This document shows positions 34,520 through 43,559 of a DNA stretch of 62,005 bases, piece after piece (the first letter of the stretch is position 1; each line of letters opens with the position of its first letter). Source of the stretch: Verrucomicrobiota bacterium. Lineage in GTDB: Bacteria > Verrucomicrobiota > Verrucomicrobiia > Opitutales > Opitutaceae. The DNA lies in contig JAQGON010000108.1 of the NCBI GenBank assembly GCA_028293565.1, forward strand, positions 1 to 62,005, written 5' to 3'. Position numbers and translations under genes: made by a program. Below the pieces are notes generated by a model, which saw nothing but the letters and a program-made list of their open reading frames with translations, was not told the DNA's origin and searched no databases.

Positions 34520-35161
34520 ATGATCCGCCTTGTCCACGTGCTGTCGTTCGCGCTGGTCGCCTTCGCCGCCGGAGCCGTGCACGCGGCCGAACCTGCCGAG
34601 ATCGCGGCGCTGCGCGTCAAGGCGGAAAAGGGGAACGGTCTCGCCCAATACAATCTGGGCCTGGCCTACGCCGAGGGGGAAATCGTCGCGCCCGACCTGG
34701 CCGAGGCGTTTGTCTGGCTCTCGCTGGCGTCGAGCAACGGCGCGACCGGCAAGGCGCTCGACCAGGTGCTCGGAAACATCACCGACGCCCAGCTCGCCGA
34801 GGGCCGGCGCCGCCTCGAGGACTATCGCGCGGCCATCGCCTCGCGCACTCCCACCACCAGTCCCGCGGCGTCGCACCGTTCGGCAAACCGCGGTTTCAGT
34901 CTTTTCTCTCAAGGCGGCCCGCCCGCGGGCACGTTGCCCGCACCGGAGTCGACGTCGACCGTGACCCAGCCGCCGCGCAACCCGGGCTCCCGCGATGCCG
35001 CAGCCGTTTCCGCCGCCGGAGCCGGGGAGATCGCTCGCCTGAAAACCGAACTCGCCAAGGCGAACGAACTCGTCGAACGGCAGGCCGCCACGATCGCGAA
35101 ACTAGAGGAGGAGCTGCGCCGGCGCGCACCTTCCGCCGGATCGACCCCGCCCGTGCGCTAG
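34520..35161 (+). CDS. Sel1-repeat exported protein with short coiled coil (triad gene A)
   Basis: The 213-residue protein has a signal peptide (MIRLVHVLSFALVAFAAGAV, cleavage near HA-AEP). Residues 24-105 hold one Sel1-like repeat (NGLAQYNLGLAYAEGEIVAP, AEAFVWLSLASSNGATGKAL) and the tail DAQLAEGRRRLEDYR. A Pro/Ser-rich linker follows, then a short coiled coil (residues 170-200, IARLKTELAKANELVERQAA). Its first 105 residues are closely similar to the start of the next gene, 150 bases downstream. Sel1 repeats mediate protein-protein contacts. I infer a periplasmic or envelope role; the function is unknown. Confidence 0.75.
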   Translation: MIRLVHVLSFALVAFAAGAVHAAEPAEIAALRVKAEKGNGLAQYNLGLAYAEGEIVAPDLAEAFVWLSLASSNGATGKALDQVLGNITDAQLAEGRRRLEDYRAAIASRTPTTSPAASHRSANRGFSLFSQGGPPAGTLPAPESTSTVTQPPRNPGSRDAAAVSAAGAGEIARLKTELAKANELVERQAATIAKLEEELRRRAPSAGSTPPVR

Positions 35162-35168
35162 ATTGGAT

Positions 35169-35238
35169 CGCGAAAGCGCGAAGCGGCGAAAGTCGGAAGG
35201 ATCCGCTTTCCACGCTTCCGTTCCTGCGCTTCCGCGAG
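35169..35238. repeat. Intergenic inverted repeat (GCGAAAGCGCGAAG type)
   Basis: CGCGAAAGCGCGAAGCGGCG (from 35169) and, in inverted orientation, CGCTTCCGTTCCTGCGCTTC (from 35213) form imperfect arms around a short loop. It fills the gap between triad genes A and B and could fold into a hairpin in their transcript. One copy was seen in this window. Confidence 0.4.
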
Positions 35239-35314
35239 ACGATTTTCCCTGCGCTCGAGGTCAGGACGGATTCGCGTATTGAGTAGAGGGCAAAAGCATT
35301 TAGGGATTTGCGCC

Positions 35315-38300
35315 ATGCTTCCGCGCGCCCGCCCCGCCCTGCTGTTGTTGTTGCTCGCGATTGCGTGCAGTCGTCTCGCCGCCGCCGAATCCGCCGAAAT
35401 CACGTCGCTCCGCGCGAAAGCCGAACGGGGTAACTCAATCGCCCAATACAACCTCGGGCTGGCCTACGCCCAGGGCCAGCTCGTCGCGGCCGACCCGTCC
35501 GAGGCTTTCGCATGGCTCACCCTCGCGTCGGAACGAGGATCCACGGGAAAGGCGTTGAACAGCGTGCTGGGCAACATGACAGACGCCCAGCTTGCCGAAG
35601 GGCGCCGGCGCCTGGAGGCGTACCGGACGAGCGTCAACGCGATCGCCAAATCGCCGCCGCCTCCCTCCGGCGCCGCGGCCAAGGCCGGCAGCCGCGCGTT
35701 CAGCGTCAACTCCGCGTCCCCCGCGCCCGCGGCTCCGAGTCTCGCCGTCATTCGCCAGCCCTCCGCGCCGGTCGCGCATCCGCCCGAAAAACCGTCGCCA
35801 GCGCCGGACGCGGAACCGGGTGCGGAGGTCGCCACCCTCCGGAACGACCGTCATCAGCTCAGCACCGAACTCGCGTTGGCCTGGAAGGAAAACGCCCAGC
35901 TCAAGACTGACCTGACCGCCGCGCAGAGTTCCCTCAATGAGGACCGCGCCCGGATTTCCGCCCAGGCCGCCGCGCTCGCAAAACTCGAGGAGAACGGCCG
36001 GACGCGCGCCGCCGCCGTCCAGGACACCGCCCGGATTTCCGCGGAGCGCACCGCCGCCGAAGCCGCCCGCGCCCTGGCCGCCGCGTCCGCGGAATCGCTC
36101 GCCGCGGAAGTGGCGAACCTGAAGAACCGCCTGGCCGCCGCCGAATCGGCGCACGCCGCGCTCGCCGCGGAAAAATCCACCGCCGCGGAAAGCATTTCCA
36201 CCCTGACGGCCGAGAAGACGGCGCTCGCGGCCCAGCTCGACCAAGCCAATGCCGCTGCGCAGGCGGGACGCGTCGGCGAGCAGCAGAAACTCGCCGCGGA
36301 GTTGGAAGCCGCGCGAAAGGAAACCGCCCAGGCCAGAAATGCCGCGGCCGCCGCATCGGCGGAGGCGAAAAATTCCCAGGCCGCGCTCGCGACCCTCGCC
36401 GCAGCCCGCGACGCCGCCGAAGCCGGCCGCGCGAAAGCCGCCGACACCGCCGGGAGCCAGGCTGCGGAAATCGCGGCGCTGAACCAAAAGCTCGCGGCGC
36501 GCGAGCGCGACGCCCAGACAGCCGCCTCAACCCGCGCGGAAACAGAAAAGACCTCCGCGCAGCTCGCGCAGCAGCAGGCGCAGATCGACGCGCTCAAGGG
36601 ACAGCTGGCCGCGGCCGACGCCGCCCGCGCCGCCCTCGCCTCGGAAAAAACCGCGGCCGACGAAACCGTTTCCCGCCTCGCGTCGGAAAAGGAAAAACTC
36701 TCGGCGCAGGTGTCCGCCGCCGCCTCGGAACCAGCCCGGACCGCCGCCGCCGACACGCTCCGCCGCGCGGAATTCGCCGCGAAGGAAGCGACGGCCCAGG
36801 TCGCGTCGCTCAAGGCTCGCGCACAGGCGCTCGAGTCCGACCGCTCCGCCGCCCTCGCCGAACAGGCCCAGGCCAGCGAGCGCGCCAGGAAACTCGCCAT
36901 CGAACGCGACGCCGCCGAGGCCGGCCGCGCGAAATCCGCCGCCGCCGCGGAAGTCCGGGCCGCGGAAATTTCCAGCTTGAACGAAAAGCTCGCCGCCGCG
37001 GTCGCGGCGACAACCGCCGGCGCCGAGGACAAAGCCCGCGCCGCCAAGGCGGCCGCCGAGCTCGACCGCGTCCAAGCCGAACTCAAATCCTCCGAGTCCC
37101 GGATCGCGGCCGCCGAAGCCGCGCGCGCGTCGGCTCTCGCCGAGAAAACGACGGCGGAAAACGCCGTCGCCCAGCTGACCACGGACAAGGAAAAGCTCGC
37201 CGCCCAGCTTGCCGCCGCCAGCGCCGCCGATGCGGGCCGCGCCGCCGCCGCCGATGCCCTGCGACGCGCGGAATTCTCCGCGAAGGAGGCGACCGCGCAG
37301 CTCACCGCCCTCAAGGCCAGGACCCAGTCGCTCGAAGCGGACCGTGTCGCCGCCCTGACTGACCTCGCGCAAGCCAGCGACCGCGCGAAAAAGGCCCTCG
37401 CCGAACGCGACGCCGCCGAAACCGCGCGGGCCAGGCTCGCGGCCGCTTCCGAGACGCATGCGAAGGAGCTCGCCGCGCTCAACCAGAAACTCGCGGCCGC
37501 CAGCACCGCCGCGGGTTCGGACGGAGAAGCCCGGGCCGCCGCTCGCGCCGCAGCTGAACTTGCGGAACTCCATCGCCGGATCGAGGCCCAGACCACCCAG
37601 CTTGCCGCGACCGAAGCCGCGCGCGCCGAACTGGCCTCCGCCCGCTCGGCCGAGATGGAACGCAGCAAGGCGTCGGCCGATCAGGTCGCGGAATTGAAGC
37701 AGCAGGTCGAAGGCCTGGAGTCGGCGCGTGTCCAGGCGACGAACGAAAAAGACTCCCTGGCCGCCCAGCTTGCGCAAGCGGGCGCGGCCGCCGCCAAGGT
37801 CGCGGTCTCCGCCGCCGGCGCCGCCGAGCTCGCGGCGGCCAAGGCCGAACTCGGATCGATCCGCGAGAAACTCGCGGCCAGCGAATCCGTGCGCTCCGAT
37901 CTCGCCGGCCAGCTTTCGCCGCTCCGCGTCCAGCTGAGAGACGCCGAGGCCGCCGCCACCGCCGGTCAGGAGCAGGCGAGAAACCTCGCCGCCGTCCAGG
38001 CCGCGCTCGAAAAGGAGCGGCGCGCCAGCGCCCAATCCGAGCAGGCCCTCGCCCAGCTGCGGGCGCGCACCGAGGAGCTCGAAGCCAACAACGCCAGGCT
38101 CGTCGCCTCCGTCGCGTCGGCGCCGAAAATCGCGGCGGATCTTGAAGATACCCGGCGGGAATTGATCGCGGCGCGCGAAAAACTTTCCGCGTTCGCCACC
38201 GAAAGCTCCACCCATGCCGCCGCGCTGGAAGAAGCCCGCCGGGAGGCGGCCGCCCATCGCGACGAACTCGCCGCGCTCCGCGCGAAAACCCAGTCCGCGG

Positions 38301-39547
38301 TCGCCTCCGCCGGAACCGAGGCGCAGCTGCGCGTGGAATCCGCCAAAGCCTCGGCCGCGCTCGCGCAGCTGCAGGACGAGGCCGTCGGCCTCCGTTCCGA
38401 CCGGCAGCGCCTCGCGGAGGAATTGGCGACGACTCATCAGGCCGCCGACAAATCCCGCGGCGACGCCGCGGCCGCCGCGAGCCAGCTCGCCACTCTCCAG
38501 GCCAAGGTCACGCAGCTCGAAAGCGAGCGCGCCACCGCCGCGGCCAATGCCGGCCAGGCCTCCGAGCAGGTTGCCCAGGCCACGGCGCTGCAAACCCGGA
38601 TCGCCGAGCTTCAGGGACGCCTCGACGCCGCCGAAATCGCCCGCGTCGCGCTCGCCGCCAAGGTCAGCGCTTCCGCCGAGTCCGATCGCAACGCCGTCGA
38701 CCAGGTCGCGTCCCTGCGAACCCAGGTGCAGGCGCTGGAGAGCGAGCGGACCGCGCTGCGGCAGCAGATGGCCGACGCCAAAGCCGCGCCGTCCGGAAGC
38801 GACGCGGCCCGGGCGGATGCCGAATCAAAACTCGCGATGGCCCTCCGCAGCTACACCGTGCTGCGCGAGGAAAACGACGCGCTGAAGGCCGCGGCCGAAA
38901 AATCCTCCGCCGAAAAATCCGCGCTCGCGGGCGAACTCTCCGCGACGAAGTCCGCCGCCGATGCCCTCAAGCCCCAGGCCGAGGCCGGCGCCGCGGCTTC
39001 CGCCCAGCTCGAAGGCATTCGCGACCAGCTGCGGCAGTCCCAGACACAGGTCGGGGCGCTGGTCGAAGAGAATTCCCAGCTGAAGGCCCGTGTGGCCTCC
39101 AGTCCCCCCGCTGACCTCGAATCCCTGCGCACGCGCTCCGCCGAAGCGGAGCGCAAGGCGTCCGACGCGCAGAAAAGCAGCCGCGCGCTCGCCGAGGAAA
39201 ACGCGCGGTTGAAGGCCACGATCGCGAGCGTTTCCCAAACCGTGGGCCGCACCGTCGCCGTCTCGGCCCCGCCGCCGGCCGCCGCCCGGCCGGTCGGCAC
39301 GGCCGCGCCCAATCCGAATTCACCCACCCGTCCCGGCAGCATCCAGGCCGCCGCGCTCACCACCCCTCCGCCAGCGCCCGCCCCGGTGGCCCGGACCCAC
39401 GTCGTGGTTCCCGGCGACACCCTCGGAAAGATCTCCCGCCTCTACTACGGCACGCCAAACCGGTGGCCCGCGATTCTCGCCGCCAACGGCGATGTCCTTC
39501 GCGACGAACGCAGCCTGGTCGTCGGACGCATCCTGCGCATTCCCTGA
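35315..39547 (+). CDS. Giant Sel1 - coiled-coil - LysM envelope protein (triad gene B)
   Basis: The 1410-residue protein begins with a signal peptide (MLPRARPALLLLLLAIAC, cleavage near LAA-AES; the Cys at 18 could alternatively be a lipobox). Residues 25-105 are a Sel1 repeat nearly matching gene A. Residues 110-170 are a Pro/Ala-rich linker. Residues about 170-1310 are an Ala/Glu/Lys/Arg-rich coiled coil with three copies of a roughly 166-residue repeat (anchors RDAAEAGRAK at 365 and 531, RDAAETARAR at 698). Residues 1315-1360 are Pro-rich. Residues 1361-1410 are a LysM domain (THVVVPGDTLGKISRLYYG). The last 240 residues match gene C. LysM should bind peptidoglycan, and a continuous coil could reach far beyond the periplasm. 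A structural, scaffold or shape role is inference. The ATG at 35315 is chosen because it starts the signal peptide. Confidence 0.82.
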   Translation: MLPRARPALLLLLLAIACSRLAAAESAEITSLRAKAERGNSIAQYNLGLAYAQGQLVAADPSEAFAWLTLASERGSTGKALNSVLGNMTDAQLAEGRRRLEAYRTSVNAIAKSPPPPSGAAAKAGSRAFSVNSASPAPAAPSLAVIRQPSAPVAHPPEKPSPAPDAEPGAEVATLRNDRHQLSTELALAWKENAQLKTDLTAAQSSLNEDRARISAQAAALAKLEENGRTRAAAVQDTARISAERTAAEAARALAAASAESLAAEVANLKNRLAAAESAHAALAAEKSTAAESISTLTAEKTALAAQLDQANAAAQAGRVGEQQKLAAELEAARKETAQARNAAAAASAEAKNSQAALATLAAARDAAEAGRAKAADTAGSQAAEIAALNQKLAARERDAQTAASTRAETEKTSAQLAQQQAQIDALKGQLAAADAARAALASEKTAADETVSRLASEKEKLSAQVSAAASEPARTAAADTLRRAEFAAKEATAQVASLKARAQALESDRSAALAEQAQASERARKLAIERDAAEAGRAKSAAAAEVRAAEISSLNEKLAAAVAATTAGAEDKARAAKAAAELDRVQAELKSSESRIAAAEAARASALAEKTTAENAVAQLTTDKEKLAAQLAAASAADAGRAAAADALRRAEFSAKEATAQLTALKARTQSLEADRVAALTDLAQASDRAKKALAERDAAETARARLAAASETHAKELAALNQKLAAASTAAGSDGEARAAARAAAELAELHRRIEAQTTQLAATEAARAELASARSAEMERSKASADQVAELKQQVEGLESARVQATNEKDSLAAQLAQAGAAAAKVAVSAAGAAELAAAKAELGSIREKLAASESVRSDLAGQLSPLRVQLRDAEAAATAGQEQARNLAAVQAALEKERRASAQSEQALAQLRARTEELEANNARLVASVASAPKIAADLEDTRRELIAAREKLSAFATESSTHAAALEEARREAAAHRDELAALRAKTQSAVASAGTEAQLRVESAKASAALAQLQDEAVGLRSDRQRLAEELATTHQAADKSRGDAAAAASQLATLQAKVTQLESERATAAANAGQASEQVAQATALQTRIAELQGRLDAAEIARVALAAKVSASAESDRNAVDQVASLRTQVQALESERTALRQQMADAKAAPSGSDAARADAESKLAMALRSYTVLREENDALKAAAEKSSAEKSALAGELSATKSAADALKPQAEAGAAASAQLEGIRDQLRQSQTQVGALVEENSQLKARVASSPPADLESLRTRSAEAERKASDAQKSSRALAEENARLKATIASVSQTVGRTVAVSAPPPAAARPVGTAAPNPNSPTRPGSIQAAALTTPPPAPAPVARTHVVVPGDTLGKISRLYYGTPNRWPAILAANGDVLRDERSLVVGRILRIP

Positions 39548-39605
39548 TTCCGGCGCCCTCCGGTGCGGGGTTGCCTCGATCCCGAATCCACTCAATTTCG
39601 AGGTC

Positions 39606-40268
39606 ATGCGTTCCTTTACGTTGTCCGCCGCTTCCGGCGCTTTTTTTCTCCTCATCCTCTCCCACCCGGGTCTCGCCCAGTCCGCCTCCGCCAACTCCGC
39701 GCCCCCCGCCACCGTCGCGGTCGAGCCGCAGGACACGCCGGAGGCGAAACTCGCGATCGTCCTCCGCAGCTACACGCTGGTCCGCGACGAGAACGACCAG
39801 CTCAAGGCCGAGAAGGAAAAACTCCTGGCCGAAAAATCCTCCCTCGAGGCGCAGCTCGGCGTGACGAAGGACGCCCTCCCCTTGGCCGACCAGGCGGCAG
39901 GATTCCGCGAGCAGCTGCGGCGGATGCAGGATCAGCTCGCCGCGCTCTCGCTGGAAAACAACCAGCTGAAAACCCGGCTCGCCCTCAGCGGGCCCGCGCC
40001 GGGAACGACCGCACCGGCTGCCGCGGCTTCGGGCGACACGATGGTTCCGAACGCCATCACCCCGAAATTCGACAAGCTGCCTGAACCCGCGCCGGTCCAC
40101 GCCGCCGCGCCGCGCACCCACGTCGTCGCGTCCGGCGACACGCTGATGAAAATTTCCAAGAAGTATTACGGCACGCCGGATCGCTGGACGGAAATCTTCG
40201 TCGCCAATCCCGACGTGCTGAAGGACGAGCGCAGCCTGGTCATTGGCAAGACGCTGCGGATTCCGTGA
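39606..40268 (+). CDS. Coiled-coil LysM exported protein (triad gene C)
   Basis: The 220-residue protein has a signal peptide (SAASGAFFLLILSHPGLAQS). A coiled coil at residues 45-125 begins EAKLAIVLRSYTLVRDENDQ, a Pro/Ala linker follows, and a C-terminal LysM domain occupies 171-220 (THVVASGDTLMKISKKYYG, DERSLVIGKTLRIP). The ATG follows GAGG at three bases, supporting this start over an in-frame upstream one. The whole mature protein aligns with the C-terminal 240 residues of gene B, which ends 58 bases upstream. It should bind peptidoglycan through LysM, and it may bundle with gene B's coil. Confidence 0.8.
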   Translation: MRSFTLSAASGAFFLLILSHPGLAQSASANSAPPATVAVEPQDTPEAKLAIVLRSYTLVRDENDQLKAEKEKLLAEKSSLEAQLGVTKDALPLADQAAGFREQLRRMQDQLAALSLENNQLKTRLALSGPAPGTTAPAAAASGDTMVPNAITPKFDKLPEPAPVHAAAPRTHVVASGDTLMKISKKYYGTPDRWTEIFVANPDVLKDERSLVIGKTLRIP

Positions 40269-43211: not shown

Positions 43212-43559
43212 ATGAAATCCCCCTCCCCATCCGGCTTCACGCTCGTCGAGATCATGATCGTCGTGGTCATCATCGGCATGCTCGCAGCGCTGGCCATTCC
43301 GGGATTTCAAAAAATCCGCGCCGCATCGCAGGACAAGACCGTGATGAGCAACGCGCGCCAGCTCGCCGCCGCCACGGACCAGTACATGATGGAGTTCGGC
43401 CGTTCGACCGTTTCCATCGGCATGCTGGTCGGACAGACCAATTACGTGAAGAACCTCGATCTCGTGGCCAACGAGATCTACCCGACGACCTACGTCTCCG
43501 GCACGCCCATCACCGTCCTCGGCGTCGCCGGCGCCCGCACCATCACTTACGGGCTCTGA
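43212..43559 (+). CDS. Type IV pilin-like / type II secretion pseudopilin-like protein
   Basis: This 115-residue protein has a prepilin leader MKSPSPSG with cleavage before FTLVEIMIVVVIIGMLAALA, including Glu at +5. The mature N-terminal helix and a small C-terminal domain (LAAATDQYMMEFGRS, EIYPTTYVSGTPITVLG) follow. It should be processed by the prepilin peptidase encoded at 13.3 kb. Its short length and lone position suggest a minor pilin or one of the many PilA/PulG-like proteins common in this lineage. No assembly ATPase is nearby. Confidence 0.85.
   Translation: MKSPSPSGFTLVEIMIVVVIIGMLAALAIPGFQKIRAASQDKTVMSNARQLAAATDQYMMEFGRSTVSIGMLVGQTNYVKNLDLVANEIYPTTYVSGTPITVLGVAGARTITYGL

Follow-up and report, generated by a model that had tools for sequence, protein, structure and literature searches.

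What does a protein do that carries a Sel1 module at its head, a LysM domain at its tail and some 1,130 residues of coil in between, and how is it related to two short neighbours that each resemble one of its ends? The question is raised by three consecutive genes, here called A, B and C, in a stretch of 62,005 bp (the window) from a Verrucomicrobiota bacterium of the family Opitutaceae (GenBank assembly GCA_028293565.1, contig JAQGON010000108.1). Its genome, of 4.16 Mb, is assembled in 239 contigs, of which the window is C163. The three genes lie on one strand, flanked by glpK (FGGY kinase) and a cyclophilin-type gene, both recognised by Pfam. The reading we favour from the sequences, with about even confidence, is that B would be exported, bound to peptidoglycan and active in the periplasm as a scaffold or tether, together with short partners; it is preferred to a polar hub, a near-neutral spacer and a regulator of wall hydrolases.

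Open reading frames (ORFs) and Pfam agree with the layout given in the initial annotation of the window, with proteins of 213, 1410 and 220 amino acids. Gene B (35315–39547, + strand; 1410 amino acids from its ATG, the mechanical ORF from a TTG having 1422) encodes a signal-peptide-like N-terminus, a Sel1 module (residues 24–106; 35384–35632), a heptad coil of about 1,130 residues with internal duplications, a proline-rich linker and a LysM domain (residues 1356–1410; 39380–39544). The Pfam scores were 32.3 bits for Sel1 (cut-off 30.7, residues 42–76) and 27.7 bits for LysM (cut-off 20.9, residues 1362–1410). Gene A (34520–35161, + strand; 213 amino acids) has a signal-peptide-like N-terminus, a Sel1 module (residues 23–105), a proline-rich linker with an RGFSL stretch and a short coil. 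Its Sel1 score of 28.2 bits is slightly below the cut-off of 30.7, and A was therefore classed as a Sel1-repeat protein by its identity to B. Gene C (39606–40268, + strand; 220 amino acids, mechanical ORF 258) has a signal-peptide-like N-terminus, a coil with a motif that we call LRSY and a LysM domain (residues 166–220; 40101–40265; Pfam score 26.0 bits, cut-off 20.9). The signal-peptide-like N-termini of A, B and C were called by eye, not by a predictor. Also by eye, no lipobox common to the B orthologues of the genus and no internal hydrophobic segment in B were seen. NCBIfam matched B to SMC-type coil models far under their cut-offs, which we read as generic coil likeness.

The likeness of A to the head of B and of C to its tail, already noticed in the initial annotation, is far greater than that to any other protein of the genome with Sel1 or LysM. 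In a search of its own genome, A had the head of B as best other match (49% identity over query residues 8–181, E 7.1e-39), and the one further match at E ≤ 0.01 was a paralogue, B2, on contig C139 (E 3.1e-9). C matched the tail of B (query residues 102–220, E 1.8e-20) and the distal coil of B (query residues 25–136, E 2.3e-14); B2 and a LysM lipoprotein on contig C150 were matched approximately over the LysM domain alone (E 6.6e-13 and 2.5e-11). This specificity across the whole genome rules out chance or generic Sel1 and LysM likeness. Both pairings are also present as direct DNA repeats, 34582–34827 with 35380–35625 (246 nt, 73%) and 38828–38956 with 39747–39875 (129 nt, 75%).

Among the 12 genomes of the genus, B was found in all (without its coil in genome G008), and A and C in 11 each; A was not found in G010, and C was not seen in G005, where the contig stops just past B. 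We further compared 80 named loci, the best 80 of 292 relatives of the Sel1 module of B, picked by that likeness; they are titled Opitutaceae, Opitutus, Opitutae/Opitutia, Cephaloticoccus, Rariglobus, Didemnitutus or merely with Verrucomicrobia-level groups. Sel1 and LysM were in one frame in 66 and in separate frames in 4; the Sel1 frame was cut by a contig end in 8, and 2 (L148 and L162) had large LysM frames in which Sel1 was recognised by eye. A Sel1-only gene lay upstream in 11/60 loci (such a gene is present in 10 of the 11 from the genus), glpK within 3 kb upstream in 27 of the 60 reaching that far, a LysM-only gene directly downstream in 27/63 and a cyclophilin gene downstream in 5/17. 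From these counts the triad is a feature of the genus, and the wider synteny is partial. The order A-B-C, which the initial annotation proposed to look for in related genomes, thus holds within the genus; the complete triad was not seen outside it, where an upstream Sel1-only gene is rare. In G027 (L106, 8018/8019, − strand) one in-frame stop splits B into a Sel1-coil and a coil-LysM part. Of the other same-family genomes, 13/25 matched A at E 1e-16 or better and the remaining 12 more weakly or not at all. With the Sel1 profile, 17 of the 29 same-family genomes listed gave matches at E 1e-29 or better (two gave none of any strength); among 337 genomes of the phylum no match of that strength was found outside the family, the best there being 9.5e-16.

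The initial annotation took B for a fusion of its neighbours. The comparison turns this round: B is the more widespread gene and mostly occurs without A, so that, from their sequences, A and C are best taken as partial duplicates of B's head and tail. A fusion is not favoured, since most loci outside the genus have B without A and, further, since the A and C of the genus are placed near its B in trees. This direction of change was drawn from short alignments, and 11 of 41 tree rows were dropped. In the tree of 36 Sel1 modules the A and B of the genus formed one weak group (89/67), which included B of G036. A of G007 paired with B of the same genome (99/98), which hints that the two copies exchanged sequence. 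In the LysM tree (55 columns, 54 rows) B and C were intermingled. When 30 tails were compared, the C proteins of the genus, 11 in number, grouped together (91/98; found in 88% of the 200 bootstrap trees) and its B proteins did not; with the B and C tails of the genus all held together, the p value of the approximately unbiased test (p-AU) was 0.188, which neither rejects nor establishes that grouping.

The best evidence that B and its LysM partners act together is the LRSY motif, as it is shared by unlinked genes. It is a coil stretch of 36 residues ahead of LysM, common to B (38819–38926) and C (39738–39845; both + strand, located by profile search), with the core KLA..LRSY..L..EN..LK and the consensus AEAKLAVxLRSYxLLQxENDQLKAxxEKLAAEKSAL; nine columns were invariant in 23 rows. 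The profile was built from genus members, and the cut-off of 12 bits set for the named loci was reached by 60 of the 68 B spacers, by 32 of the 38 LysM-only frames, by 2 of the 24 Sel1-only frames and by none of 204 heptad-preserving shuffled spacers. When the genus members used for the profile were left out, the counts were 50/58 for B spacers and 22/28 for LysM-only frames. A search of 38 whole genomes gave 30 matches at E ≤ 0.1 in 15 genomes, 29 of them in frames of B or LysM genes; in the window's genome the copies in B and C were the only two. No match at this threshold was obtained in 23 of the 38, several same-family genomes among them. For the 14 B2 frames no copy of the motif was reported; the C150 lipoprotein had a weak score of 7.4 bits.

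In G014, a single-contig genome, the motif is carried by B and also, at a distance of 1.5 Mb, by two LysM genes (L052, 188–1279 and 1498–2883, − strand), one with a lipobox-like sequence (GCHYVHFG) and the other with a signal-peptide-like start. A GC-Y-H lipobox was present in 14 of the 38 LysM-only frames; a lipobox points to a membrane anchor. As judged from these sequences, the motif is nearly confined to B and its LysM partner genes and is a candidate co-assembly site. The initial annotation had the two neighbours as adaptors sharing the ends of a rod; this fits B and C, which share the motif; in the Sel1-only frames of the genus it was not found. Two other occurrences of LRSY-type sequence were observed: a weak match in G008 (C51, 23433–23486; E 0.07) lies in a frame of 1,388 amino acids about 0.8 kb from a LysM match, and two Sel1-only genes located after B in two other lineages (L170, 11409–12653; L188, 3075–4124) have such a motif near their C-terminal end, unlike A of the window.

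The coil of B was confirmed as a heptad coil. Its hydrophobic period is 3.48 over 1,130 residues containing eight prolines, with a power of 6.4, where 20 shuffles gave no more than 2.0, and among 32 B and B2 proteins the period ranged from 3.44 to 3.54, 31 of them exceeding all 20 shuffles (the exception was G034). Its length is variable. The spacer between Sel1 and LysM in 66 loci measured 8 residues in one and 320 to 1931 in the other 65, and because of this range the coil is no fixed ruler. Of the long peptidoglycan-anchored rod first proposed, the wall-anchored coiled coil remains the best reading and the fixed length does not. Within the B coil (36395–37497, DNA self-comparison) a unit of 104 nt occurs at 36395, 36893 and 37394, with a copy 63% alike at 36035, and there is a 232-nt pair at 36714/37215; the top offset is 167 amino acids. 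Internal similarity exceeded five heptad-preserving shuffles in 28 of 30 proteins (not in G018 and G025), with differing top offsets, and the coil therefore seems to have grown by lineage-specific duplication. For metagenome-assembled genomes (MAGs), length variation by assembly collapse is possible; single-contig genomes vary too, with frames of 1099, 1110, 1147, 1270, 1707 and 1904 amino acids in G014, G030, G015, G316, G169 and G319, respectively, LysM being confirmed in the first three only. The ends of B are conserved, with 7 invariant Sel1 columns and 11 invariant LysM columns in 23 proteins from 23 genomes.

The extreme case is the MAG G008 (L076, 6707–7207, − strand), in which the coil has been lost in frame, leaving Sel1, eight residues and LysM, with the C gene adjoining. 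Compared with G004, the nearest in the Sel1 tree with a spacer of 1,435 residues, few bases are shared at the junction, and the coil-less copy may conceivably be an assembly error. The loss of the coil in G008 and the wide spacer range would also suit a near-neutral spacer, of which only the two ends matter, whose coil lengthens through internal duplication and is shortened by deletion, and next to which A and C are drifting duplicates with no joint function. The internal similarity with its differing offsets, the low number of upstream Sel1-only genes and the patchy distribution of B point the same way. We nevertheless regard this explanation as improbable: 65 of the 66 spacers have at least 320 residues, heptads are kept in nearly all tested coils, the LRSY motif is conserved, and the C proteins of the genus, 56–65% identical to that of the window, form one group.

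Under the favoured scaffold or tether, the C-terminal LysM would hold B to the wall, the observed heptads would let the coil oligomerise into a long hinged rod, and the N-terminal Sel1 head would recruit a partner. As the LRSY motif stands ahead of LysM in both, C and the lipoprotein LysM genes elsewhere would probably join the coiled-coil bundle of B at its wall end, the lipoprotein forms adding a membrane anchor. A would be a head-only copy, competing for or pre-loading the Sel1 client of B. An extended helix rises about 0.15 nm per residue, so that 1,130 residues span about 170 nm, far more than the width of the periplasm; because of this, the coil of B has to run along the wall or be folded at its proline or glycine breaks. 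Its length is free to drift, so that it would act as spacer or scaffold mass and not as a ruler. A fuller version is only tentatively put forward, and we think it unlikely as a whole: a three-part periplasmic filament with B as a rod of evolvable length, tuned by duplication of coil segments, and with A and C as partners derived by partial duplication, C binding at the wall through LRSY and A binding to the head, while LysM lipoproteins tie the bundle to the outer membrane.

AlphaFold2 models are consistent with this arrangement. C was predicted as helices at residues 45–90 and 92–127 followed by LysM (mean predicted local distance difference test score (pLDDT) 72.8, predicted template modelling score (pTM) 0.28). 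The B of G005, with 772 amino acids, was predicted with Sel1 helices first and LysM last (pLDDT 70.4, pTM 0.29), and between them helices at 161–284, 293–349, 356–476, 485–600, 606–660 and 662–690 (124, 57, 121, 116, 55 and 29 residues) separated by short breaks. Foldseek searches with the B model returned LysM (Kbp, phage baseplate), Sel1 (6ok3), AlgK and long helices of a generic kind; no match reached E 0.001. By sequence, the head was closest to Sel1-repeat proteins of solved structure, and the LysM domain (C residues 165–220) to E. coli Kbp (7pvc, E 5e-6). Kbp is a small BON-LysM protein; its chain of 157 residues lacks the long coil and Sel1 of B.

Several points weigh against the scaffold or tether. 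Wall binding is argued from the LysM family, as the nearest solved LysM belongs to the potassium-binding Kbp. The predicted models are of low overall confidence, as their pTM values indicate. The coil may be dispensable, given the coil-less copy in G008. Only 2 of the 24 Sel1-only frames, neither from the genus, have LRSY, which leaves a common bundle with A hypothetical, and in 8 of the 68 B spacers it stays under 12 bits. The distribution of B within the family is patchy, with no strong match in 12 of the 25 other same-family genomes.

The domains of B are known ones; their combination was not found named in our literature searches, made mostly by title, in agreement with the initial annotation, which knew of no named system with this layout. 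The nearest comparisons are with polar landmarks or hubs such as FimV/HubP or PodJ, and a role of this kind, in which LysM would set the position at the pole or division site and the coil and Sel1 would recruit client machines, is doubtful. Long coils often drive clustering. PodJ likewise unites a coiled coil with Sel1 repeats and a domain that binds peptidoglycan; its coil is cytoplasmic, the order is different and the wall domain belongs to another family. A literature search found no paper joining PodJ, Sel1, coiled-coil and peptidoglycan-binding. The ingredients of FimV/HubP are similar to those of B, namely a peptidoglycan-binding LysM, a long sequence-variable middle and TPR-type repeats at the opposite end, and FimV has its LysM in the periplasm, its acidic middle in the cytoplasm, a transmembrane region and a FimV domain at the C-terminus (PMC12918733). 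In B, by contrast, Sel1 comes first and LysM last, Pfam found no FimV domain, and with no internal membrane segment seen by eye both ends would be periplasmic, unlike FimV. The sole neighbour that would point to a polar machine is a pilin-like ORF at 43212–43559, named by eye.

A regulator of wall hydrolases like EnvC or NlpD, whose coil and LysM would bring an amidase or activator to the septum, seems very unlikely to us. Several such regulators do combine a coil and LysM in one periplasmic protein. Neither LytM nor any further enzyme domain was reported for the three proteins by Pfam and NCBIfam, and among the neighbours looked at, which include an M20 peptidase (Pfam) and a hexosaminidase-like gene (by eye), no wall hydrolase was recognised. 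As for tethers, SlpA reportedly ties down the outer membrane by means of a periplasmic stalk or coil with a wall-binding part. OmpM and SlpA differ from B in having SLH domains and an outer-membrane barrel, where B has LysM and Sel1. Neither SLH nor a beta-barrel was found in A, B or C by Pfam at E ≤ 0.1, which places B outside that group. OmpM resembles B in having a stalk or coiled coil in the periplasm together with a part that binds the wall (PMC10628300).

The neighbourhood is mostly kept within the genus, in the order RND, MFP, MarR, glpK, A, B, C, cyclophilin, M20, pilin-like, FKBP and Hex (hexosaminidase-like). MarR and M20 were also identified by Pfam; RND, MFP and FKBP were also named by eye. 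In the stretches fetched, glpK was not found in G001, G004, G008 and G010, MarR not in G004, G008 and G009, RND and MFP not in G004 and G008, and M20 not in G010; the end of the G005 contig after B leaves no downstream genes there. In G009 (L077, 11028–11424) glpK is cut down to a fragment adjoining the triad. The pilin-like ORF downstream of the triad is 77–94% conserved in 10 of the 11 other genus genomes. A promoter-like element (ATTGAGT-N4-GG-N-AAAAGCA-N-TTAGGG) precedes B at 35278–35305 (+ strand), its single match within the window. By eye, similar stretches precede B in several genus members; in some the element stands before A instead, and there A and B abut or overlap.

The paralogue B2 (a frame of 1,628 amino acids on C139, and of 2,611 in G030) has several Sel1 repeats, a giant coil and LysM; it is located at L089 5902–10788 (+ strand) and L096 4008–11843 (− strand). 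An RF-1-type gene was near B2 in 11/11 other B2 loci compared, and its neighbours (TatC, RF-1 type, succinyl-CoA ligase type) gave no functional hint. The C150 ORF (L010, 3827–4717, − strand; 296 amino acids) is lipoprotein-like, with TPR, a short coil and LysM by eye, and a protein resembling it was read in G043 (L067), from another family of the order. With B2, these two proteins suggest that a repeat head, a coil and a LysM tail may recur as a plan in the order.

In our judgement, the attachment of the outer membrane to the wall in Verrucomicrobiota is poorly known. In the window's genome the OmpA family gave two matches and the Lpp family none; the latter says little, because the Lpp model matched only 1 of 14 control genomes (E. 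coli). The system offers one motif to mutate, LRSY, and one natural coil-less copy to compare, that of G008. If the reading of B as a scaffold or tether is true, the locus would be a natural case of spacer length evolving and of new subunits arising by partial duplication.

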